This document shows, piece after piece, positions 1-55,172 of a stretch of DNA of 64,000 nucleotides. A model generated the notes under the pieces. It did not search any database. It worked only from the letters and a program-made list of their open reading frames with translations, and was not told where the DNA came from. Every line of letters begins with the position of its first letter. Position 1 is the stretch's first letter. The position numbers were made by a program, and so were the translations under genes. Origin of the DNA: Candidatus Acididesulfobacter guangdongensis (lineage in GTDB: Bacteria; SZUA-79; Acidulodesulfobacterales; Acidulodesulfobacteraceae); assembly GCA_004195045.1 (NCBI GenBank), contig SGBC01000002.1, forward strand, positions 248,001 to 312,000. Reading direction: 5' to 3'.

Positions 1-1
1 A

Positions 2-2263
2 TTGATAAATCTTTTTACGGAAATAGCCGAAATACAATGTAAAAATAAGCGGCTAACCGATAATGATGCCGATGTCAGGAGCGGTGCTGATGAAGATAAA
101 AATATTCAATCAAGTGAAGGTAAGTCTCCAACCATCCAGTCCTCCCTTGCGATAGGTCACATCAGATGGGCTACTCACGGAAAACCGACAGACGAAAATG
201 CCCATCCCCATTTAGATTGTTCGGGAGAGATTGCTATTGTTCATAACGGCATAATAGAAAATTATATTCAGTTAAAAGAGAAACTTCTAAAAAATAATCA
301 TAAATTTAAAACAGAAACTGATTCGGAGATTATTGCTCATTTGATAGAAGACTATATTATCAAAGGGAATTCGTTTTCAGAATCAGTCAGAAAAACCTCT
401 CTAGAATTAAAGGGTTCATTTGCAATAGCTATATTATACGCTAAAGAGAAAACTATTGCAGCGGTGAAATTCGGTCCTCCCCTTGTTCTTGCAAAAAGAG
501 AAAAAAATTTATTTATTGCGAGTGATGTATCTGCACTGCTCGGATATTCGAATGAAGTTATATATTTAAAAAACGGTGAAATAGCTTATTATCGTTATGA
601 GGATAATGACAATAACAATATAAACAATATAAATAATAGAAACAATATAAACAAGATAAATAATATAAATAAGATAAGCAAGATAAGCAATGCAGACAAT
701 ACAAGAAAGATTAATAATTCAAATAGGCTATACAATAGCAATGAATTAGAAATAATAAACTTTAGGGGCAAGAAGCAAAAAATAGATATCAATCTTATAA
801 AATGGGATGCATCCAAGACTGTAAAATCCGGCTTTTCTCATTTTATGCAGAAAGAAATTTTTGAACAGCCGACCACTATTCTAGAAGGTTTTAATTCAAG
901 GGTTTTGTTTAAGAAAGATTTGCGCAGTTCAATAGATTTAAGCAATTCAAAAGATTCGCGCAGGTTAAGCGATTCTGACGATTCAAGCTGTATAAACGGT
1001 TCAAGCGGGTCATCATTCAATAAATTGTCAAGTTCTGCCTCTGCTGCCTCTGTGCAAGATCGGGATATTCTGATAAATTCAGATTCTATAGCGTCGTCCA
1101 AAGCGTCCGATTCACAAAAGCAGGATGTCCTGAAAGATTTATATAATTCTGAAGATGTAAAAATAGCGCTGGAAGGATTAAAACTTACAAAAAAAGATAT
1201 AATATCCGCGGGCAGAATTATTTTTATTGCCTGTGGCTCTTCTTATTATGCTTCGCTGGTAATAAAAAATGTTATCGAAAATTTGTGCGGATTGCCGGTT
1301 ATAGTCGATTACGGTTCGGAATTCAGATACGGAAAATTTCCTGTTCTGGAAACAGATATAGTAGTCGGGGTTTCGCAGTCAGGTGAAACTGCGGATACAA
1401 ACAGCGCTATAGAAATCGTTAAAGAAAAAAAAGCAAAAATTATATCTATCTGCAATGTTCCGGGTTCACAACTGACGGCTCTTTCTAATAAAGGAGTGAT
1501 ATATACCCATGCCGGACCGGAAATAGGCGTTGCATCGACAAAGGCATTTACTTCCCAAGTATTGTGCGGGATACTTTTGGCGCTATACCTAAGACAGGAA
1601 ATTACGAACGCCCGCGTCTATATAAACGGGAAGGCAAATTCAAATGCAAATGCCGGCAAAAGCTGTAAAAATGACAGCCGCGCCGGAGCAGGAATGCCTT
1701 ATAGCGTAGGAGGCAATACATCAGGCATTTCCGGTAAATTTTTTAGCGATTTGATTGCGCTGCCGCAGAAGATTGAGGAGATTCTGGCTTTAAATGAAAG
1801 CATAAAAAATATTGCGAATAAATATTATAAAAGTACGAATTTTTTATATCTCGGCAGAGGCATTTTATCTCCGATAGCTCTTGAAGGGGCATTAAAATTA
1901 AAAGAAATATCATACATTCACGCGGAAGGATATCCTTCCGGAGAAATGAAGCACGGACCGATAGCGCTTATTGACGAGAATATGCCGGTTATGTTTCTTT
2001 TGTCAAATAGCCTGCTTGCTCCAAAAACTATTTCCAATATAGAAGAAATTAAAGCAAGAGGCGGACGCGTTATAGCACTCGCAGATTATGACCCGAATAT
2101 TGAGGGTTTATCAGATTTAATAAAAATTCCTGATACTTCTGAAATTTTAAGTCCTATATTATTTACGGTTCCGCTTCAACTTTTTGCATATCATATAGCC
2201 GCCTTTAAAGGTACGGATATAGACCAGCCAAGAAATTTGGCAAAAAGCGTGACGGTAGAATAA
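2..2263 (+). CDS. glmS: Glutamine--fructose-6-phosphate aminotransferase (isomerizing), 5' partial
   Basis: Makes glucosamine-6-phosphate from fructose-6-phosphate and glutamine, the entry step to UDP-GlcNAc for peptidoglycan and LPS. The N-terminal Cys and first ~60 residues lie outside the window; the apparent TTG start is only the window edge. Visible are the glutaminase segment (HIRWATHGKP, ENAHPH, HNGIIENY), two SIS domains (ACGSSYYASL, SQSGETADT, ASTKAFTSQ), EGYPSGEMKHGPIALI and the C-terminal DQPRNLAKSVTVE. Three low-complexity stretches interrupt the fold: an Asn/Ile-rich run at about residues 200-248 of the visible protein, a Ser/Asp-rich run at about 308-380 in the inter-domain linker, and an Ala/Asn/Gly run at about 533-579 between the two SIS domains. 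All are in frame and the catalytic motifs are intact, so the gene is probably functional. Confidence 0.95.
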   Translation: MINLFTEIAEIQCKNKRLTDNDADVRSGADEDKNIQSSEGKSPTIQSSLAIGHIRWATHGKPTDENAHPHLDCSGEIAIVHNGIIENYIQLKEKLLKNNHKFKTETDSEIIAHLIEDYIIKGNSFSESVRKTSLELKGSFAIAILYAKEKTIAAVKFGPPLVLAKREKNLFIASDVSALLGYSNEVIYLKNGEIAYYRYEDNDNNNINNINNRNNINKINNINKISKISNADNTRKINNSNRLYNSNELEIINFRGKKQKIDINLIKWDASKTVKSGFSHFMQKEIFEQPTTILEGFNSRVLFKKDLRSSIDLSNSKDSRRLSDSDDSSCINGSSGSSFNKLSSSASAASVQDRDILINSDSIASSKASDSQKQDVLKDLYNSEDVKIALEGLKLTKKDIISAGRIIFIACGSSYYASLVIKNVIENLCGLPVIVDYGSEFRYGKFPVLETDIVVGVSQSGETADTNSAIEIVKEKKAKIISICNVPGSQLTALSNKGVIYTHAGPEIGVASTKAFTSQVLCGILLALYLRQEITNARVYINGKANSNANAGKSCKNDSRAGAGMPYSVGGNTSGISGKFFSDLIALPQKIEEILALNESIKNIANKYYKSTNFLYLGRGILSPIALEGALKLKEISYIHAEGYPSGEMKHGPIALIDENMPVMFLLSNSLLAPKTISNIEEIKARGGRVIALADYDPNIEGLSDLIKIPDTSEILSPILFTVPLQLFAYHIAAFKGTDIDQPRNLAKSVTVE

Positions 2264-22907: not shown

Positions 22908-25322
22908 ATGGATATTGCCGGTGCAGACAGCTCTAAAACGGAAACAAAAAAGATAAATACTGATAAAACAGATGCTGATAAAACAGATATTAATAAAACG
23001 GATTCTGATATAATCATTAATAAAACAGATATTAATAAAATAGACACTTATAAAATAGATAACGATAAAACTGAAGCTATTAAAATATCCAACGAATTTA
23101 ATGCAACAAATATTTTGAGGGATAATTTTAAAAGCAGCATTAATAACATAACAGATATTGATTTAAATGATATACAAAGCGATAAATTTAAACTTTTAAA
23201 AAAAGCTTACGATTTTTCTCAAACAGTTCATAAAGGACAGTTGAGAGAATCTGGAGAGCCTTATTTTACCCATCTTATAGAAGTGGCTTCAATAGTTGCA
23301 AGTCTCAGAATGGACTGCGCTTCTATAGTTGCGGCACTTCTTCATGACACAGTAGAAGATACCCTTGTTACATTAGACCAGATAAAAGAAGAATTTGGCG
23401 ATGAAATTGCCTTTATAGTCGACGGACTTACAAAAATAAGCAAACTTTCTTTTAAATCTTCCGAAGAGGTTCAGGCTGAAAATATCCGTAAGATGATTGT
23501 TGCAATGGCTAAAGATATAAGGGTTATCATCATTAAACTGGCGGACAGACTGCACAATTTAAGAACGCTTAATTTTTTATCGGAAGAAAGAAGAATTAAA
23601 ATAGCCCAGGAAACGCTTGATATCTTTGCTCCTTTAGCAAATAGATTAGGTATATTCTCAATTAAAAGCGAACTGGAAGATCTTTCGCTGAAATATCTTA
23701 ATCCGGCTGTATATAAAGACCTTTCTTTAAAAATCAGCAGTAAAAAATTATCTAGAGAGCAATATATTGCAATGGTTGCAGATATCTTAAAAGCAAATCT
23801 TTCTAAACATAATTTTTTAGAAGCTGAAATTTACGGAAGACCTAAACATTTTTTTAGTATTTATAAAAAAATGACCGAGCAGCACATAAGCTTTGAGGAA
23901 ATTTATGACTTAATAGCATTGAGGGTTATAGTCAGTACAATAAATGAATGTTATGAAGTGCTAGGTGCTGTCCATTCTTTGTGGAAACCGGTTGCAGGCA
24001 GAATTAAAGACTATATTGCTATGCCAAAGGCAAATATGTACAGGTCGCTTCATACGACCGTTATAGGTCCTGAAGGAATGCGTATAGAAATACAGATTAG
24101 AACTAAAGAAATGCATTTTATTGACGAATTTGGAATAGCGGCTCACTGGAAATATAAAGAAAATATTACTCCTGCAGGCTCAGGCGGCGCAGATTTACAG
24201 GAATTTAACTGGCTCAGGCAGCTTGTTGAATTTCAAAAAGACCTTAAGGACCCGCATGAATTTTTAAACAGCGTAAAAATAGACCTTTTTCAGGAAGATG
24301 TTTATGTTTTTACACCCAAAGGGGATGTCATTGCTCTGCCTAAGGATTCGACGCCTATTGATTTCGCTTATTATATTCATACGGAAATAGGAGATAAAAC
24401 TACCGGAGCTATTGTAAACGGCAATATAATTCCTTTAAGATATAAATTGCAGAATGGCGATATTGTTAAGATTTTAACTAAAGAAGGACATCACCCGTCG
24501 AAGGATTGGCTGAATTATGTGCAATCTTCCAAGGCTATCTCTAAAATAAGAAACTGGATAAGACAGCAGGAAAGACAGGAAAGTATCGATGCCGGAAAAG
24601 AAAGTCTGGAAAAAGAATTCAGAAAATTAGGGAATAAAAAGATTGAATATAATGAATTAACCGCCCTGGCGCTAAATTATTATTCGCTTAAGGATGAAGC
24701 AGAGTTGTATGCAGGAATAGGTTTTGGCAAATATTCTCCTAAAAATATTTTTTCATCGGTTATCCCTGGTTTTAAAAATTCAGATGGATTATCGCTGATA
24801 ACTCAAAAAACCGGAAATGTTATCCAGAGAATTCTTCAAAAAATTAAGATTCAGTCTTCTGCAAGCAGCAAAAACGTTATTACATCGCCTTTTGGCGGAG
24901 ATTTGCTTTACAAAATAGCCGGCTGCTGCCATCCAGTTCCCGGAGATTCTATCGTAGGATATATTTCAAGGGGCAGAGGAGTAATAGTTCATAAATCTGA
25001 TTGTAAAAATATAATAGGCGAGGATGAAACCAGACTTATAACCGTCAGCTGGAAAACGGCAGGAGCAACATCAGTCCTCGGCTATTTTGAAACTAAGATA
25101 AATATAGTTACCGAAGATAAGAAAGGCATACTGGCTGAAATTGCGGCTGTTATATCGGATAGAGGCGCCAATATTTCAAAAGCGCAGGTAAGGACGCTTA
25201 AAGACGGCAGAGCGATACATATTTTTGATATTGAGGTTAAAGATATTACACAGATTGATAATATATTAAATTCTATAAGGACAATAAAGGGCGTTATTAA
25301 AGTCAACAGAGTTACTTACTGA
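22908..25322 (+). CDS. spoT: Bifunctional (p)ppGpp synthetase/hydrolase (SpoT/Rel)
   Basis: Long RelA/SpoT homolog controlling the stringent response. Order: HD hydrolase (GEPYFTHLIEVASIV, LLHDTVEDT near 146), synthetase (YDLIALRVIV, GRIKDYIAMPKANMYRSLHT near 360-385, FGIAAHWKYKE), TGS (VYVFTPKGDVIALPKDSTPIDFAYYIH), the cysteine segment AGCCHPVPGD and a C-terminal ACT domain. HD residues and an RxKD-type synthetase motif are present, so both activities are plausible. The first ~75 residues are a Lys/Thr/Asp/Ile-rich extension of short repeats (NKTD, DKTD) not found in the family. Confidence 0.95.
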   Translation: MDIAGADSSKTETKKINTDKTDADKTDINKTDSDIIINKTDINKIDTYKIDNDKTEAIKISNEFNATNILRDNFKSSINNITDIDLNDIQSDKFKLLKKAYDFSQTVHKGQLRESGEPYFTHLIEVASIVASLRMDCASIVAALLHDTVEDTLVTLDQIKEEFGDEIAFIVDGLTKISKLSFKSSEEVQAENIRKMIVAMAKDIRVIIIKLADRLHNLRTLNFLSEERRIKIAQETLDIFAPLANRLGIFSIKSELEDLSLKYLNPAVYKDLSLKISSKKLSREQYIAMVADILKANLSKHNFLEAEIYGRPKHFFSIYKKMTEQHISFEEIYDLIALRVIVSTINECYEVLGAVHSLWKPVAGRIKDYIAMPKANMYRSLHTTVIGPEGMRIEIQIRTKEMHFIDEFGIAAHWKYKENITPAGSGGADLQEFNWLRQLVEFQKDLKDPHEFLNSVKIDLFQEDVYVFTPKGDVIALPKDSTPIDFAYYIHTEIGDKTTGAIVNGNIIPLRYKLQNGDIVKILTKEGHHPSKDWLNYVQSSKAISKIRNWIRQQERQESIDAGKESLEKEFRKLGNKKIEYNELTALALNYYSLKDEAELYAGIGFGKYSPKNIFSSVIPGFKNSDGLSLITQKTGNVIQRILQKIKIQSSASSKNVITSPFGGDLLYKIAGCCHPVPGDSIVGYISRGRGVIVHKSDCKNIIGEDETRLITVSWKTAGATSVLGYFETKINIVTEDKKGILAEIAAVISDRGANISKAQVRTLKDGRAIHIFDIEVKDITQIDNILNSIRTIKGVIKVNRVTY

Positions 25323-25424
25323 TTGTTTAGTTGCTTACAGCTTTTATAATCTTAATAGAGTTGCTTGCCAGATGTTTATTTGCTAACAGCTTTTATAATC
25401 TTAACAGAGCTGGTTGCAGACTGC

Positions 25425-25622
25425 TTATTTGCTAACTACTTTTGTAATCTTGCCGGCTTTCAAACATTTAGAGCAAACTTTCACCTTTTTATGTGTTCCG
25501 TTAAAATCGGCTTTTACTATATGCAGATTAGGCAGGGATACTTTTTTTGTTTTATTGTTAGCGTGAGAAACTTTGTTGCCGTATTGAATGCTTTTTCCGC
25601 AAACGCTGCAGGTCCTTGACAT
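25425..25622 (-). CDS. rpmB: 50S ribosomal protein L28
   Basis: 65-residue large-subunit protein. [23 protein letters not shown] and the second cysteine pair in [12 protein letters not shown] are the zinc-ribbon L28 form. GGAG Shine-Dalgarno before the ATG. Convergent with spoT, separated by about 100 bp in which a ~35-bp spoT-distal sequence (GCTTTTATAATCTTAA) recurs. Confidence 0.95.
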
Positions 25623-32181: not shown

Positions 32182-33240
32182 ATGGGTAACTTAGATAAGA
32201 ACAAAACAAAAGACGGTAAAGATATTGATTGTGAATGCGGAACAGACGGAAATCATGACGGCAGTTCGTGCGGATGCGGACACGAAGAGGAGCATCATGG
32301 CTATCACCGCGATGAAGACGGCGGTTCTTGCGGCTGCGGAGAAGATGGACATAGTCATGACGGCGGTTCTTGCGGCTGCGGCGGCGATGACGATGAAGAA
32401 GACGGCGGTTCTTGCGGCTGCGGAAGCAGTCATGGCGAAGGGCACGGGAAAAATCCTTTTGATGAACAATCTCCAATAAAAGGCGTTAAAAATATAATTG
32501 CCGTAGCAAGCGGAAAAGGCGGAGTAGGCAAGTCTACGTTTAGCGTAAATCTTGCTATTAGTTTAGCTCAGCAGGGCAAAAAAGTAGGTCTTATGGATGC
32601 CGATATGTATGGTCCCAGCGTTCCTATGATGATGGGAATAAACCAGAGACCTGAATTAACCGAAGATAAACGGATTGTTCCTATAGAAAAATATGGCATA
32701 AAATTAATGTCGCTCGGTTTTTTGATACCGGAGGATACGCCTGCAATATGGAGAGGTCCGATAGTAATGCAGGTCACGACCCAGTTTCTAAAAGATGTTG
32801 AATGGGGCGATATAGATTTTCTTGTCGTCGATTTGCCTCCTGGCACCGGTGATATTCAGTTAACGCTTGTGCAAACCGTTCCGATAAATTTTGCTATTGT
32901 TGTTTCAACACCTCAGGATATATCGCTTATTGACGCAAAGAAAGCATTGGGAATGTTTGATAAAGTTAATGTTCCTGTCTTTGGAATAGTTGAAAATATG
33001 AGTTATTTTGTCTGCCCGCATTGCGGAAAACGTTCCGACATATTTAAACATGGCGGTGCGAAAACTGCTGCGGAAAAATTAGGTGTAAATTTTCTTGGAG
33101 AAATACCGATAATTGAAGATATCTGCGAATTATCCGATTCCGGAGAGCCTTTTATGACTAAAGACAGAAATCCAGAGGTTAAAGCAGTATTCAGCAAAAT
33201 TTCCGATGAGCTTATTTTAAGAACCGAACAAAGAGCTTGA
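32182..33240 (+). CDS. mrp: Mrp/ApbC/NBP35-type ATPase with Cys/His-rich N-terminal repeats
   Basis: P-loop ATPase that carries and transfers Fe-S clusters. The deviant Walker [18 protein letters not shown] (about residues 107-124), [11 protein letters not shown] and the C-terminal [11 protein letters not shown] (cluster-bridging CxxC) are intact. Instead of the usual MIP18/DUF59 N-terminal domain it has ~90 residues rich in Gly, Asp, His and Cys: four SCGCG units (three in the form GGSCGCG) separated by acidic and His-rich spacers, plus CECG. These could bind metal; that is inference. Followed after 80 bp by trxA. Confidence 0.93.
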
Positions 33241-44626: not shown

Positions 44627-44674
44627 ATATAATTATTTTAAAATCAGTTTCTATAAAAATATAAACCGCAATCT

Positions 44675-44737
44675 AAACTATAAACTATAAACTATAAACT
44701 ATAAACTATAAACTATAAACTATAAACTATAAACTAT
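44675..44737. repeat. Heptamer tandem repeat (AAACTAT)x9
   Basis: Nine exact copies in the region just upstream of sat, ending about 50 bp before the start codon. Length variation here would change spacing in the leader of the sulfur cluster. Confidence 0.93.
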
Positions 44738-44786
44738 AGAAACTAAAGTCTAACGGAACTTATTTTTACTCGGAGGAATAGATATA

Positions 44787-48797: not shown

Positions 48798-50234
48798 GTG
48801 AGTAAATTGAACGAAAAACCTGTTCTTATTATCGGCGGAGGATTCAGCGGCATATCTGCGGCTCTTGAAATAACCGAGTCATCGTCAAAGTCTGTTATTG
48901 TAGTGGAAAAAAATCCGTACATCGGAGGCAGAGTTTTGCAGATGTATAAATATTTCCCAAAATTATGTCCGTCGTTTTGCGGCTTTGAGATTAATTTAAG
49001 AAGAGTTAAGTCAGCCGATGAAAGCAGGATAAAATTTTATGTTTCATCAGAAATAGAAGAAATTACAGAAATTCAGAAAAACTCAGGCGAAACGGAAATC
49101 GTAAACGGTGATGCGTCGGTGCAGGGGAAGATTTCATCTTTGCCGGCAGACGCATCGGCTGGAAGCAGGATGACCGCCGTCGTTGATGTTAATGTTAATA
49201 GTAATAATTATGGTAATGGCAGCGGTTGTGTTAACGGCTATAAAGTTAAAATAAGGCAGAAACCGCAGTATATTAACGACAACTGCACTATATGCGGCGA
49301 ATGCGCAAAAGTGTGTCCTGAAAACAGATTGAATGATTTTAATTATAACATGGACACTCAGAAAGCTATTTATATAACAAATATATCCGCTTATCCGTCA
49401 AAATACAATATTGATGCTGAAGCGTGTAAATTTGATTCATGCAAAAAATGCGAAACCGTCTGCAGATACGATGCTATAAATTTTAATACAAAAGAAGAAA
49501 TATTCGACATAGAAGCAGAATCTATTGTCATGGCTTCAGGCTGGAAACCTTATGATGCAGAAAAAATTACAAATCTCGGTTTCGGCAAATATAAAAATGT
49601 AATCACGAATGTTATGATGGAAAGGCTTGCGGCGGATAGCGGTCCTACAGGCGGAAAAATTCTGAGACCGTCTGACGGCAAAGAAGCTAAGAATGTTGCA
49701 TTCGTGCAATGCGCAGGTTCGAGAAATGAAAATCATCTGCCGTACTGCTCGGCAATATGCTGCTTAGCCTCCTTGAAGCAGTCAATCTATCTCAGGGAAA
49801 AAAATCCGGAATCCAATTCTACGATTTTTTATATTGATATAAGAACGCCCGGAAGATATGAAAAGTTTTATAATAGGGCGTCATCTGACGAAAGAACTAA
49901 GTTTATTAAAGGGATTGTAGCAAATATATTTGAAGATGAACTTTCTGGAGACCTTTTTCTTGAAGCGGAAGATATACTTTCAGGCAAAAAAATAAAATTC
50001 AGAGCCGATATGGTAGTTCTTGCGGCAGGAATGGTCCCTAATCGACCTGCTATAAAAACAGGCAATGTTAAATTCGCCTATGACGCTAACGGTTTTCTAT
50101 TTAACCAGAATGAAAATTTAGGAATTTTTTCGGCAGGCGTTGCAAAGAACCCTACCGATGTTTACAGTTCAGTTCAGGCTTCAACAGGAGCCGCTCTTTC
50201 CGTTTTACAGTTTTCCGCTAATAAAAGAGGTTAA
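48798..50234 (+). CDS. qmoA: Quinone-interacting membrane-bound oxidoreductase subunit A
   Basis: HdrA-like flavoprotein of the Qmo complex linking menaquinol to APS reductase. PVLIIGGGFSGISAALEI binds FAD; NCTICGECAKVCPE and CKFDSCKKCETVCRYDAI are Fe-S motifs; LPYCSAICCLASLKQSIYL matches HdrA. The start is GTG. 478 residues, some 60 above the usual size: a Ser/Asn/Asp/Ala-rich insert lies at about residues 95-150. Followed after 7 bp by qmoB. Confidence 0.94.
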   Translation: MSKLNEKPVLIIGGGFSGISAALEITESSSKSVIVVEKNPYIGGRVLQMYKYFPKLCPSFCGFEINLRRVKSADESRIKFYVSSEIEEITEIQKNSGETEIVNGDASVQGKISSLPADASAGSRMTAVVDVNVNSNNYGNGSGCVNGYKVKIRQKPQYINDNCTICGECAKVCPENRLNDFNYNMDTQKAIYITNISAYPSKYNIDAEACKFDSCKKCETVCRYDAINFNTKEEIFDIEAESIVMASGWKPYDAEKITNLGFGKYKNVITNVMMERLAADSGPTGGKILRPSDGKEAKNVAFVQCAGSRNENHLPYCSAICCLASLKQSIYLREKNPESNSTIFYIDIRTPGRYEKFYNRASSDERTKFIKGIVANIFEDELSGDLFLEAEDILSGKKIKFRADMVVLAAGMVPNRPAIKTGNVKFAYDANGFLFNQNENLGIFSAGVAKNPTDVYSSVQASTGAALSVLQFSANKRG

Positions 50235-50241
50235 ATAAAAT

Positions 50242-53200
50242 ATGGACAATAAGCTTGGAGTTTATATATGCTCGGGATGCGATATAGGTAAATGCCTGAA
50301 TATAGAAGAACTCGAAAATATTGCAAAAAGCGAATATAAACCGGAAATTTGCAGAGTGAATAATTTTCTCTGCTCTAAAGAAGGTTTAAATATTATCAAT
50401 GAAGATATCAAATCTTCCGGACTTAATAAAATAGTTATAGCGGCGTGTTCAATGAGGTCAAAACAGGATGTATTCAGTTTTGACCCGTCAAAAATATTTA
50501 CGGAAAGGGTTAATTTAAGAGAACACGTGATATGGGTGAGCGAACCAAACAGCAAAGGTGCTCAGATGCTTGCCGAAGATTATTTAAGAATGGGGATAGC
50601 AAGAGCAAAAAAAGCTGAAATTACTGTTCCTCTGACAGCAGAATTAAATAAGACTATTCTAGTTGTTGGCGGAGGCGTTACTGGTTTAACCGCCGCTCTG
50701 AATTCCGCAAAAGCAGGATATGATGTAATATTAATAGAGAAAAAAGAGCATCTGGGCGGATTCCCATATCTAAAGTATAAAAAATGGGAGACAAGCCCGC
50801 CTTTCGAAGATAATCTGCTTATTAAAAATGACCTTGGCAGACTTATCGATAATGTTGAAGGTTCTAAAAAAATTAAAATATATAAAAATTCTGAAATTGG
50901 TGAGATATCCGGTGCCCCGGGAAAATTTGAAGTAAAAATAAAAGTAAAAACAATTACAAATTCCGGTTCAGATTCAGATTTTAGTTCCGATAAAAGTATA
51001 AAAGATAAATCTGATATATATATAAATGATAAAAATAGTAAAAATATAAATGAAGAAACCGTTATTGAAAAAGCCGGCGCAATCATTGTAGCAACCGGAT
51101 GGAAACCGTATGATGCGCATAATCTTTCCTATTTAGGATACGGTTTGTCTCCTGATATTCTGACGAATGTCGAACTTGAAGAACTTTATTCCGAACTGTA
51201 TTTAAAAAGCGGCGATGAAAATTTTGCCGTTAAAAGAAAATCCGATGGCAAGGATGTCAAATCTGTTGCGTTTATTTTATGTGCCGGTTCAAGAGACGAA
51301 AACTATCTGCCTTACTGTTCTACCGTCTGCTGCATGACTTCCTTGAAAGAAGCTAATGCGTTCAGAAAAAATAATCCGGATGCCAAAGTATATATAATAT
51401 ACCGCGATATAAGAACGCCGGGCGAATATGAAAATTATTATAAAAGTATGCAGAATGACGACGGAATATTTATGGTTAAAGGAATTATGTCCGATGTCGC
51501 ATATGACGGAAAAAATAATACTATAAAGTTAAAAGTCAATAATACGCTTTTTGGAGGCAGTCTTGATTTAAATGTGGATATGGTTATACTTGCTTCCGGT
51601 ATGGTTCCTAATTCCGGTAATTTTACGGCAAATGACGAAGTAGTTTCTGCAGGTGGCGATTCTGTTGTCATGCAGACGCAAGAACAGGAACAATGCAAAC
51701 AATGTCAGAATCAAAATGAAGCCGGCGTTCAGAATCAAAATAGCGGCAATAACCAAAACCAGATTCAGCTCGGTAATAAGATACATATCAATGGTAAAAG
51801 CGGCACGGCTGCTGTTTTGTCCGCTAACGGCGATAACAGTGTTGATATTGATAATAATAACAACAATGACGATAATAAAATATCTGCCGGCGGAGCAAAT
51901 CAGAAAACTTCGTCAATATCCGTAAAAACATCAAAAATTACCATTCCCGGTATGGGCAATGCTAATGCTGAAAATAAATCTATAAATACAAATTTAGATG
52001 CAAATGCAAACAAAAATATAAATACGCCTGAATCTGTATCAGCGGCATCTGATGTTGTAACAACCAAAAGCAGTATCAATATTCAACGAAGCAGTATAAA
52101 CATAAATCCTGTTGCAGGAAATAATAGTAATAATAGCAGCAGTGCCGGTAATGATGCTAATGATCGCAGTGCTTCCTTAACAACCAAAAGCAGTATCAAT
52201 ATTCAACGAAGCAGTATAAACATAAATCCTGTTGCAGGAAATAATAGTAATAATAGCAGCAGTGCCGGTAATGATGCTAATGATCGCAGTGCTTCCTTAA
52301 CAACCAAAAGCAGTATTAATATTCAACGAAGCAGTATAAACATAAATCCTGTTGCAGGAAATAATAGTAATAATAGCAGCGGCAGCGCGGCTAATAACAA
52401 TAATATAAGCAAGGATGATAAAGCAGCGGACAGGGTTAATGAAGCTGATAATGATAAAATCGGCGGTTCTAATCCTGCTGTTATTAGAAGCAGTTTCAGT
52501 ATTAATATTAATAATAATAAAGACGGAAACAAAGATTTAAATAACAGAGATAATACTGCAGATACATCAAAACCTTCAAATCTCGGCAATAGCAGCGTAA
52601 ATAGCAATATAAATGTAAATGCCGTTTCCGGCACCGCTGCATCTATAAATGTAAACGCAATAGGGGCTGTGTCAACCGCATCAGAAAGCGTCGCATCTTC
52701 TCTGCAGCCGCCTCCTGCATCATCGCGTGCTTCCGATGCAGCGGCTTCATGCTGTACGTCCTTGCCGTCCGGTTCGGCGTCTGCCTTAAAAACTAACAGT
52801 AAAGGCGGTCTTCTTAATTTGACATATAGACAGGGCAAGGAAATGCCTGACCTTATATACGGTTTTCCGGATTCTAATTTTATTTGTTTTCCTTATGAAT
52901 CGAGAAGAACCGGTATATATCCGGCCGGTTCCGTCAGAGCGCCGATGGATACTGTATTTTCCGTTGACGATGCAAAGGGAGCGGTTCTTAAATCAATACA
53001 GTGCATTGAGCAGACTTCTAAGGGGAGAGCCGTACATCCAAGGTCAAATGATACTACTTATCCGTTTTTTGACCTGCAAAGATGTACGCAATGCAAAAGA
53101 TGCACGGAGGAATGTCCTTTTGGAGCTATCGACGAAGATGAAAAAGGCACGCCTAAACCAAATCCGGAAAGATGCAGAAGGTGTGGGGTTTGCATGGGAG

Positions 53201-53712
53201 CGTGTCCGGTTAAGATTATTTCGTTTAAGAATTATTCGGTAGATATAATAGGTTCAATGCTGAAAAGCATAAATGTTCCGGGCGAGGCTGAAAAAATCGA
53301 TGATTTCAGAATATTGGTCTTCGCCTGTGAAAATGATGCATATCCTGCTCTTGATATTGCAGGAATGAATAAGATACAGCTTCCTTCAAATATAAGGGTT
53401 ATTCCGGTAAGATGTCTTGGTTCTATAAACAATGTGTGGTATGCCGACGCTCTTTCAAGAGGAATAGACGGGATACTTCTTTTAGGCTGTAAATTTGGAG
53501 ATGATTATCAATGCCATTTCATCAAAGGTTCAGAATTGGCATCTTATAGAATGGAAAATCTTAAAGAAACTTTAACAAGATTGGTGCTGGAATCCGAAAG
53601 AATAAAACAGGTTCAGTTAGAATTTTCAGATTACCGGAAATTGCCTGATATATTAAATGAGTTTGCGGACAAAATAAAATCTTTAGGTCCGAATCCATAT
53701 AAGGAATTTTGA
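50242..53712 (+). CDS. qmoB: Quinone-interacting membrane-bound oxidoreductase subunit B with giant low-complexity insert
   Basis: HdrA/MvhD-like flavoprotein of Qmo. N-terminal YICSGCDIGKCLN, FAD site ILVVGGGVTGLTAALNSAKAG (about 136-156) and LPYCSTVCCMTSLKEA form the HdrA part. C-terminal ferredoxin motifs CTQCKRCTEECPFGAI and CRRCGVCMGACPVKII precede an MvhD-like domain (VFACENDAYPALDIAG, LLGCKFGDDYQCHF). The family is roughly 750 residues; this one is 1156. The excess is one block, about residues 457-853 (nt 51610-52800), of Asn/Ser/Ala/Asp/Gly with 40-residue repeats. Flanking domains are intact and in frame, so the protein may still work. Confidence 0.93.
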   Translation: MDNKLGVYICSGCDIGKCLNIEELENIAKSEYKPEICRVNNFLCSKEGLNIINEDIKSSGLNKIVIAACSMRSKQDVFSFDPSKIFTERVNLREHVIWVSEPNSKGAQMLAEDYLRMGIARAKKAEITVPLTAELNKTILVVGGGVTGLTAALNSAKAGYDVILIEKKEHLGGFPYLKYKKWETSPPFEDNLLIKNDLGRLIDNVEGSKKIKIYKNSEIGEISGAPGKFEVKIKVKTITNSGSDSDFSSDKSIKDKSDIYINDKNSKNINEETVIEKAGAIIVATGWKPYDAHNLSYLGYGLSPDILTNVELEELYSELYLKSGDENFAVKRKSDGKDVKSVAFILCAGSRDENYLPYCSTVCCMTSLKEANAFRKNNPDAKVYIIYRDIRTPGEYENYYKSMQNDDGIFMVKGIMSDVAYDGKNNTIKLKVNNTLFGGSLDLNVDMVILASGMVPNSGNFTANDEVVSAGGDSVVMQTQEQEQCKQCQNQNEAGVQNQNSGNNQNQIQLGNKIHINGKSGTAAVLSANGDNSVDIDNNNNNDDNKISAGGANQKTSSISVKTSKITIPGMGNANAENKSINTNLDANANKNINTPESVSAASDVVTTKSSINIQRSSININPVAGNNSNNSSSAGNDANDRSASLTTKSSINIQRSSININPVAGNNSNNSSSAGNDANDRSASLTTKSSINIQRSSININPVAGNNSNNSSGSAANNNNISKDDKAADRVNEADNDKIGGSNPAVIRSSFSININNNKDGNKDLNNRDNTADTSKPSNLGNSSVNSNINVNAVSGTAASINVNAIGAVSTASESVASSLQPPPASSRASDAAASCCTSLPSGSASALKTNSKGGLLNLTYRQGKEMPDLIYGFPDSNFICFPYESRRTGIYPAGSVRAPMDTVFSVDDAKGAVLKSIQCIEQTSKGRAVHPRSNDTTYPFFDLQRCTQCKRCTEECPFGAIDEDEKGTPKPNPERCRRCGVCMGACPVKIISFKNYSVDIIGSMLKSINVPGEAEKIDDFRILVFACENDAYPALDIAGMNKIQLPSNIRVIPVRCLGSINNVWYADALSRGIDGILLLGCKFGDDYQCHFIKGSELASYRMENLKETLTRLVLESERIKQVQLEFSDYRKLPDILNEFADKIKSLGPNPYKEF
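52058..52380. repeat. 120-bp tandem repeat inside qmoB (2.7 copies)
   Basis: Period is exactly 120 bp (40 codons): copy 1 at 52058-52177, copy 2 at 52178-52297 and partial copy 3 at 52298-52380. Copies 1 and 2 are identical except for the first boundary; copy 3 differs at one base (T at 52317). Each unit encodes KSSINIQRSSININPVAGNN plus a Ser/Asn-rich linker. The near identity shows recent amplification. Confidence 0.97.
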
Positions 53713-53855: not shown

Positions 53856-55172
53856 ATGTCCAGCAATTCACTAAACGGCAAAGGCATTAATATCAACGGC
53901 AACAATAACGATATTAATAATTTCAATCTTGTTAAAAATATCAGGGATATCGGAGACAGTCCTTTTAAAAAATGTTTTCAGTGCGGCACGTGTTCTGCAA
54001 TATGCCCTTTGTCGTCTGACAATAAACCTTTTCCTCGAAAAGAGATGATATGGTCGCAGTGGGGTTTAAAAAATGAATTGGAAAGCGACCTTGATCCGTG
54101 GCTGTGTTATTATTGCGGAAAATGCTCCGAGTTCTGTCCTAGAAAAACAGACCCCGGTCAACTTATGATGTCGCTTCGACGCTGGCTGACTACCGTTTAC
54201 GACTGGACAGGAATTTCCAGACTGCTTTATAAATCCAAAATTGCAGAGTATATTGCGTTGTTAATCGTGGCAGTGATTGTATTTATAGAATGGGCGGTTC
54301 TTTTTGGATTAACCCCTCCTTCCAATGCAAATATCAGCGGCAATGCAGGTGTGATGAGCAGCGTAGGCGGCGGCAATAAAATACTGACTATTAATCAAAT
54401 GGTTCCGGCATACAAGATAGATTATTTTTTTGATTATCCCATGATAGTTATACTTTCAGCGCTGCTGCTCTCATTTATTTTTAATATGTTTAAAAAAACT
54501 GTTTTAAGCGATAAAAATGTCAAGATTCCGTTTAAACTTTATTTTACTGAATTATGGGCGCTGATATTTAATTTTTTTACGCAGATAAGATTCTCAAAAT
54601 GCGAAGATGAAGAAGCGCAGAAGGAGACTTTTTTTAAAAAACTTTCTGAAGGAAAATATAATTTCTGGCTTACGCACGTGTTTCTTATGACCAGCTATGT
54701 AGCTTTATTTATAGGAATAGTAGTTTTCTTAAAATGGTTTCAGACTGATGATAAATATGTATTGTTCCATACTATATTATTTGATTATTATGCAAGTATA
54801 GGACTCATATTCGGAACTATTTATTTTGCATATAAAAGACTCACAAAGAAAATTGAAAGAAGCAAATTTTCTCATCATACCGACTGGGCGTTTATCGTAC
54901 TGCTTTTTATGACCGCTTTTACAGGAATACTATTGAGGGCTTTCGTTGTTTATAAAGATCCCTCGTCGTGGATTTTTTACTTATATCTAATTCACTTGAT
55001 GATAGTAATTCCTATGCTTGTCATTGAAGTGCCGTTTTCTAAATGGTCTCATCTTGCATATAGACCTATTGCAATTTATTTTTCAGCATTAAAAGAAAAA
55101 GCTGTAAAACTTAATGAAGCCGGGTCCGACGTTTCAGATGGCGCTGCAGCAGCTGCCGAAGATAATTTGTAA
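53856..55172 (+). CDS. qmoC: Quinone-interacting membrane-bound oxidoreductase subunit C
   Basis: Fusion of an HdrC-like ferredoxin (CFQCGTCSAICPLSSD and CYYCGKCSEFCPRKTDPG) with an HdrE/NarI-like membrane domain of several helices that binds heme b and quinone (helices near residues 125-145, 190-210, 265-290, 345-370, 375-395). Anchors QmoAB to the inner membrane. 438 residues, somewhat long: Asn/Asp-rich N-terminus, a Gly/Asn/Ser loop (NANISGNAGVMSSVGGGNK) and a short Ala-rich tail. Good GGGAGA Shine-Dalgarno. Confidence 0.95.
   Translation: MSSNSLNGKGININGNNNDINNFNLVKNIRDIGDSPFKKCFQCGTCSAICPLSSDNKPFPRKEMIWSQWGLKNELESDLDPWLCYYCGKCSEFCPRKTDPGQLMMSLRRWLTTVYDWTGISRLLYKSKIAEYIALLIVAVIVFIEWAVLFGLTPPSNANISGNAGVMSSVGGGNKILTINQMVPAYKIDYFFDYPMIVILSALLLSFIFNMFKKTVLSDKNVKIPFKLYFTELWALIFNFFTQIRFSKCEDEEAQKETFFKKLSEGKYNFWLTHVFLMTSYVALFIGIVVFLKWFQTDDKYVLFHTILFDYYASIGLIFGTIYFAYKRLTKKIERSKFSHHTDWAFIVLLFMTAFTGILLRAFVVYKDPSSWIFYLYLIHLMIVIPMLVIEVPFSKWSHLAYRPIAIYFSALKEKAVKLNEAGSDVSDGAAAAAEDNL

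Follow-up and report, generated by a model that had tools for sequence, protein, structure and literature searches.

A long, predicted-disordered loop inside QmoB with conserved and repeatedly amplified short motifs

The qmoB locus and its main insert

The window, i.e., the whole stretch of 64,000 nucleotides that was analysed, contains qmoB as a single uninterrupted ORF of 1156 amino acids between qmoA and qmoC (Table 1). The genes sat, aprB, aprA and qmoA lie 5' of it and qmoC lies 3', which gives the sat-aprBA-qmoABC context. It was found that sat, aprA and aprB score above curated cut-offs; qmoC reaches 212.8 bits, under the cut-off of 300, yet this is its best-matching family. QmoB has its HdrA-like FAD domain, its ferredoxin domain (aa 942-995) and its FlpD/MvhD domain (aa 1024-1149), and HdrA structures match it in both sequence and fold. 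Proteins of this family form a membrane complex with QmoA and QmoC and exchange electrons with AprAB.

An initial annotation had described an in-frame insert of ~400 residues in QmoB, and alignment with relatives delimited it to 396 codons, with ends at most 10 bases from those first proposed. The edges in the protein are ...ASGMVPNSG before and GLLNLTYRQGKEMPD... after the insert, which consists of 20% Asn and 17% Ser. The same annotation had put the insert between the HdrA-like and the ferredoxin/MvhD parts, which turned out to be wrong. The conserved segment LLNLTYRQG...GIYPAGSVRAPMD (aa about 857-925), which lies after the insert and before the ferredoxin domain, is still part of the HdrA-like FAD domain; hence, the insert is a loop inside this domain and not a linker, and domain separation is an unlikely role for it. 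As judged from the alignments, the site corresponds to an ancestrally variable loop of the FAD domain.

The reported 40-codon unit, in 2.7 copies that differ by one base, was recovered by TRF and by sequence comparison. TRF gave a period of 120, a match of 99% and a score of 639, making this the top-scoring array of the window. Copies 1 and 2 show no difference over 120 nt, and the partial copy 3 has a single base change (52317 C->T) in a synonymous Ile codon. The region holds 23 promoter-like matches against 14.5 +/- 4.1 in shuffles, and those at 52097, 52217 and 52337 merely recur with the array. Tryptic peptides of the insert include SSININPVAGNNSNNSSSAGNDANDR, SSFSININNNK and IGGSNPAVIR. 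The CxxC at the CKQC site is retained in four of the five species with a long loop (see below), and a Cys at the SCC site (mostly ASC) occurs in most of the family and is older than the loop expansion. A published account of the QmoB insert was not found in the open-access literature searched.

A second, smaller insert, absent from the initial annotation, lies upstream in QmoB and differs in length within the genus. At this site, qmoB of the congener G004 (L034) has a 15-bp array of 8.9 copies encoding EKDLN repeats, so that slippage occurred separately at another QmoB loop.

Table 1 Features of the qmo region, in window coordinates
Feature	Position	Strand	Description and basis
qmoB	50242..53712	+	1156 aa: HdrA-like FAD domain, 2x[4Fe-4S] ferredoxin domain, FlpD/MvhD domain
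Main insert of QmoB	51619..52806	+	aa 460-855, loop of HdrA-like FAD domain; alignment with relatives and AlphaFold2
120-bp tandem unit	52058..52380	+	2.7 copies, 40 codons per unit; TRF and repeat search
CxxC (CKQC)	51694..51705	+	close to N-terminal end of insert; alignment with relatives
SCC	52747..52755	+	close to C-terminal end of insert; alignment with relatives
Second QmoB insert	50950..51051	+	aa about 237-270, low-complexity; alignment, AlphaFold2
Motif island copy 1, TTKSSINIQRSSININP	52060..52110	+	
Motif island copy 2, TTKSSINIQRSSININP	52180..52230	+	
Motif island copy 3, TTKSSINIQRSSININP	52300..52350	+	
Motif island GGSNPAVIRSSFSINI	52462..52509	+	four species: 0 amino-acid changes, 8 synonymously variable codons
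Weaker related island SSISVKTSKI	51910..51939	+	
QmoA insert	49074..49220	+	aa about 93-141, ~49 residues, gained in long-loop clade
QmoC KGININGN-type addition	53880..53912	+	near N terminus, gained in long-loop clade

Loop length in relatives and other genes of the window

Between flanking anchors, the loop measures 376-415 aa in five species, namely, G000 (own genome), G001, G003, G004 and G005, and 82-86 aa in the congeners G002 and G006. It is mostly 55-61 aa long in the other genera of the family and 18-59 aa in other QmoB; among 58 QmoB loci measured with slightly narrower anchors, it spans 6-51 aa outside the genus. Of the seven species of the genus, the five with a long loop form one clade (100/99 support) in a tree computed without the loop, with the two shorter-loop congeners as sister. 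Those relatives that have public records are represented by metagenome-assembled genomes, and the organism may belong to Ca. Acidulodesulfobacterales (PMC6776010).

The two other Qmo subunits also gained sequence in the long-loop clade (Table 1), and in the KGININGN segment of QmoC the residues are identical within the clade while synonymous changes are present. In Sat, AprA and AprB, no length change matching the clade was found, and a partner of the motif described below was sought in these three proteins and none was seen.

Other repeats were observed in the window. A perfect 7-bp repeat, TAAACTA, is present in 9.3 copies at 44674-44738, just upstream of sat, and its slippage could cause variation in expression. 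At 25305-25451, a 49-bp repeat occurs in 3 copies at and beyond the end of an 804-aa ORF. A 352-aa P-loop protein at 32182-33240 (+), which by eye has the look of an Fe-S carrier of the Mrp/NBP35 type, carries an N-terminal, His/Asp-rich extension with several GGSCGCG repeats that possibly binds metal.

Motif islands and selection

The insert had been read as low-complexity sequence. It is indeed Asn/Ser-rich, but this description is incomplete; the insert also holds motif islands that are under strong purifying selection and were amplified in parallel between species, and many other enzymes of the genus carry Asn-rich expansions as well. The 17-residue TTKSSINIQRSSININP is present in 3, 3, 2 and 2 copies in G000, G001, G003 and G005, respectively; its residues are identical in 10 out of 10 copies from these four species and its codons vary. 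The related NPAVIRSS(F/Y)SININN occurs once in each of the four and twice in G004. The islands TTKSSINIQRSSININP and GGSNPAVIRSSFSINI show 0 amino-acid changes and 7-8 synonymous ones each in four species.

The alignment of the four species closest to each other (G000, G001, G003 and G005) was used for a permutation analysis. Within the insert, the longest stretches without amino-acid change are 18, 16 and 17 aa, with 8, 8 and 7 synonymously variable codons, and they were matched in 0 of 20,000 column permutations, with gap columns fixed or not, in a set of four close species, which is few, and with a partly ambiguous alignment of the repeats. This is the sole test of the motifs that is free of circularity. 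The variable spacer columns (169 with an amino-acid change, 44 synonymous only) contrast with the variable motif columns (1 with a change, 25 without), a comparison that is descriptive, since the motifs were there picked by conservation.

Pairwise dN/dS is 0.28-0.49 for the whole insert, compared with 0.01-0.15 for the core. The former values resemble those of Asn-rich stretches in other enzymes, which indicates that the insert is mostly weakly constrained, with strong constraint in the islands only; unusual conservation of the whole insert was therefore rejected. Because synonymous sites within the islands do change, a cause at the RNA or DNA level is disfavoured. In GlmS, NuoF and MurE, long unchanged runs within masked stretches resemble, by eye, ordinary domain sequence at the mask edges. 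Taken at the codon level, the data show purifying selection restricted to the motif islands, and a repeated short motif that is conserved while its spacers diverge is the pattern of a multivalent short-motif array.

The amplified units differ between species. In G000, it is the 120-bp unit (2.7 copies); in G003, a 114-bp array of 1.8 copies was found; G004 has two 111-bp units, one carrying KRSSISINP (3.6 copies) and the other VIRSSYSININ (2.1 copies). The core (K/R)SS(I/F/Y)(N/S)I is present in every one of these units: different units with one core were amplified in tandem, in parallel between species. The DNA pattern of the core has 9 matches in the whole own genome, 7 of which fall in the QmoB insert; the share in QmoB is 7/7 in G001, 5/7 in G003, 5/6 in G005 and 4/6 in G004. 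G002 and G006, which have no long loop, give 5 and 2 scattered matches, and reversed-pattern controls give 2-6 matches per genome within the genus. Within these genomes, the core motif is almost confined to QmoB.

Asn-rich expansions across the genus

Across ~450 kb sampled from the own genome, 336 ORFs yielded 37 Asn-rich stretches, one gene having entered twice through sample overlap. The stretch in QmoB is the longest of the sample (339 aa, the next being 165). With one ORF set and one criterion for both genomes (N at least 13 in 60 residues), 33 of 318 ORFs are Asn-rich here and 5 of 341 in the family outgroup G009; shuffling of residues within proteins leads to an expectation of 17 and 2.7, respectively. 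Among 108 reciprocal best pairs, 19 are longer by at least 20 and 5 shorter by at least 20, and the gain of QmoB is the largest (+382, followed by +274).

Several enzymes exceed the length of their family models: GlmS (808 aa, model 607), MurE (676 aa, models 472-486), MurD (542 aa, model 441), GlmU (625 aa, model 452), NuoF and CobB; for NuoF, fusion to another domain may be responsible too. GlmS, encoded at 1-2263 (+) of the window with a full copy at L063:7837-10260, has several Asn/Ser-rich inserts. MurE of G004 (L184; orthologue of L065:3638-5665) was seen to have its own loop array of NNNNNIINGNTDDSSK-like units. Asn was found to be heavily under-represented in low-complexity regions when over 1,500 proteomes of prokaryotes and phages were surveyed (PMC6821194), which makes the expansion in this genus unusual. 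As such, the expansion of QmoB is in keeping with the tendency of the genus as a whole; QmoB stands out by its short motifs, which selection has maintained and which have multiplied independently.

Predicted disorder

AlphaFold2 gave a pLDDT of about 22-35 (~26) and no secondary structure for the main insert, and the second insert (aa 240-267) was of low confidence too. Of the 44 input sequences, only four span the main insert; hence, the model supports disorder without proving it. The insert is thus predicted to be disordered, and the disordered chain of a sticker-and-spacer array is present as a prediction. The initial view of a recently expanding, disordered insert in an otherwise normal QmoB is supported to this extent.

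Interpretation

The reading preferred here, with a probability of roughly 55%, is that the insert is a disordered loop of the sticker-and-spacer type, in which selection has favoured multiple copies of a short motif, and that it would provide multivalent docking or self-association of Qmo complexes. A motif that is copied and stays unchanged while the surrounding sequence drifts is suggestive of a module for docking or self-assembly, as opposed to mere junk. Such a loop may have started as a surface loop of the FAD domain that was already variable in the family. Its growth would date to the common ancestor of one clade, within a lineage whose genome is generally prone to expansions of this kind, and would have come about through in-frame duplication and slippage of Asn/Ser-rich DNA. 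A short motif with the core (K/R)SS(I/F/Y)(N/S)I(N/Q) would have fallen under purifying selection within the loop and been amplified repeatedly, with the Asn/Ser/Gly/Asp-rich stretches between the motifs drifting as spacers; each species has 5-7 copies of the motif. The product is most likely a multivalent docking or self-association arm; its motifs would bind something, and it may thereby gather Qmo complexes into clusters on the cytoplasmic side of the membrane, either among themselves or together with partner enzymes.

A tolerated neutral expansion appears rather unlikely. It would mean that an AT-rich genus gathers Asn-rich sequence in surface loops, with QmoB simply the largest case and no function of the loop other than leaving the enzyme undisturbed. 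The excess of Asn-rich ORFs over the outgroup, the lengths of GlmS, MurE, MurD and GlmU and the ordinary dN/dS of the whole insert all fit this account, but three runs of 16-18 residues with zero amino-acid change and 7-8 synonymous changes each do not, nor does the one core common to the amplified units of different species, and the unchanged runs of GlmS, NuoF and MurE look like domain sequence.

A special case of the docking and self-association explanation, one that needs no external partner, is that the motifs are beta-strand stickers by which the loop self-assembles (amyloid-like or reversible cross-beta) into Qmo filaments or clusters. The alternating Ile in SSINI/SININ within an Asn/Ser context and the similar ININ segment in QmoC are in line with it; the peak Q/N content per 80 residues is 31, 30, 32 and 32 in four species, but only 24 in the fifth, G004. 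AlphaFold2 placed no strand in the insert, which is weak counter-evidence because a monomer was modelled. On balance, this special case is improbable. A conserved folded domain missed by current models, to which the conserved Cys close to both insert ends might hint, is rejected as very improbable, since no Pfam domain was found in aa 460-855 and the pLDDT is about 26 throughout, and there are many indels between species. An assembly artefact in the repeat, although its first two copies are identical, is scarcely credible: the insert was looked for in relatives and found in five separate genomes, so it is not an oddity of one assembly, and the question is limited to the exact copy number here.

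Beyond the preferred docking loop, it may tentatively be proposed that the loop is a multivalent disordered scaffold which a respiratory electron-transfer enzyme has come to carry within its own chain and which clusters Qmo, together with the KGININGN segment of QmoC, into a membrane-bound sulfate-respiration assembly, in a genus with Plasmodium-like Asn-rich expansion of housekeeping proteins. If the motifs bind, a multivalent scaffold would have arisen in a core enzyme of energy metabolism inside a single genus, and the congeners that have no long loop would serve as natural controls. In any case, sulfur-metabolising bacteria of a small uncultured group have enlarged a core enzyme of sulfate respiration by half.

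Comparison with known systems

The domains and operon context are those of the QmoB/HdrA family, i.e., an HdrA-like flavoprotein with a C-terminal MvhD-like domain; in contrast to the 6-59 residues of most relatives, the loop here has nearly 400, which equals roughly half of a normal QmoB. Prion-like domains are usually recognised by at least 30 Q/N in 80 residues, a value reached in four of the five species and missed in the fifth; unlike such domains, the insert is almost devoid of aromatics (2/396). CsoS2-like scaffold proteins of bacterial compartments are disordered and multivalent, and the likeness would lie in a disordered chain in which a short conserved motif recurs several times. Here, however, this chain sits within a respiratory enzyme as an internal loop, and the motif is, as far as known, unrelated.

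In Plasmodium falciparum, Asn-rich stretches are reported in many conserved housekeeping enzymes of an AT-rich genome (PMC7534687, PMC5762703), and the present genus likewise has Asn-rich loop insertions in many conserved enzymes. Compared with Plasmodium, the host is here a bacterium of moderate AT content (GC 0.33), and the QmoB insert additionally has conserved repeated motifs. With Asn-rich expansions in many essential enzymes, this genus of bacteria offers a counterpart, on a small genome, to the old Plasmodium question of neutrality versus selection for insertions of this kind, a question that the contrast between motif islands and spacers makes testable.
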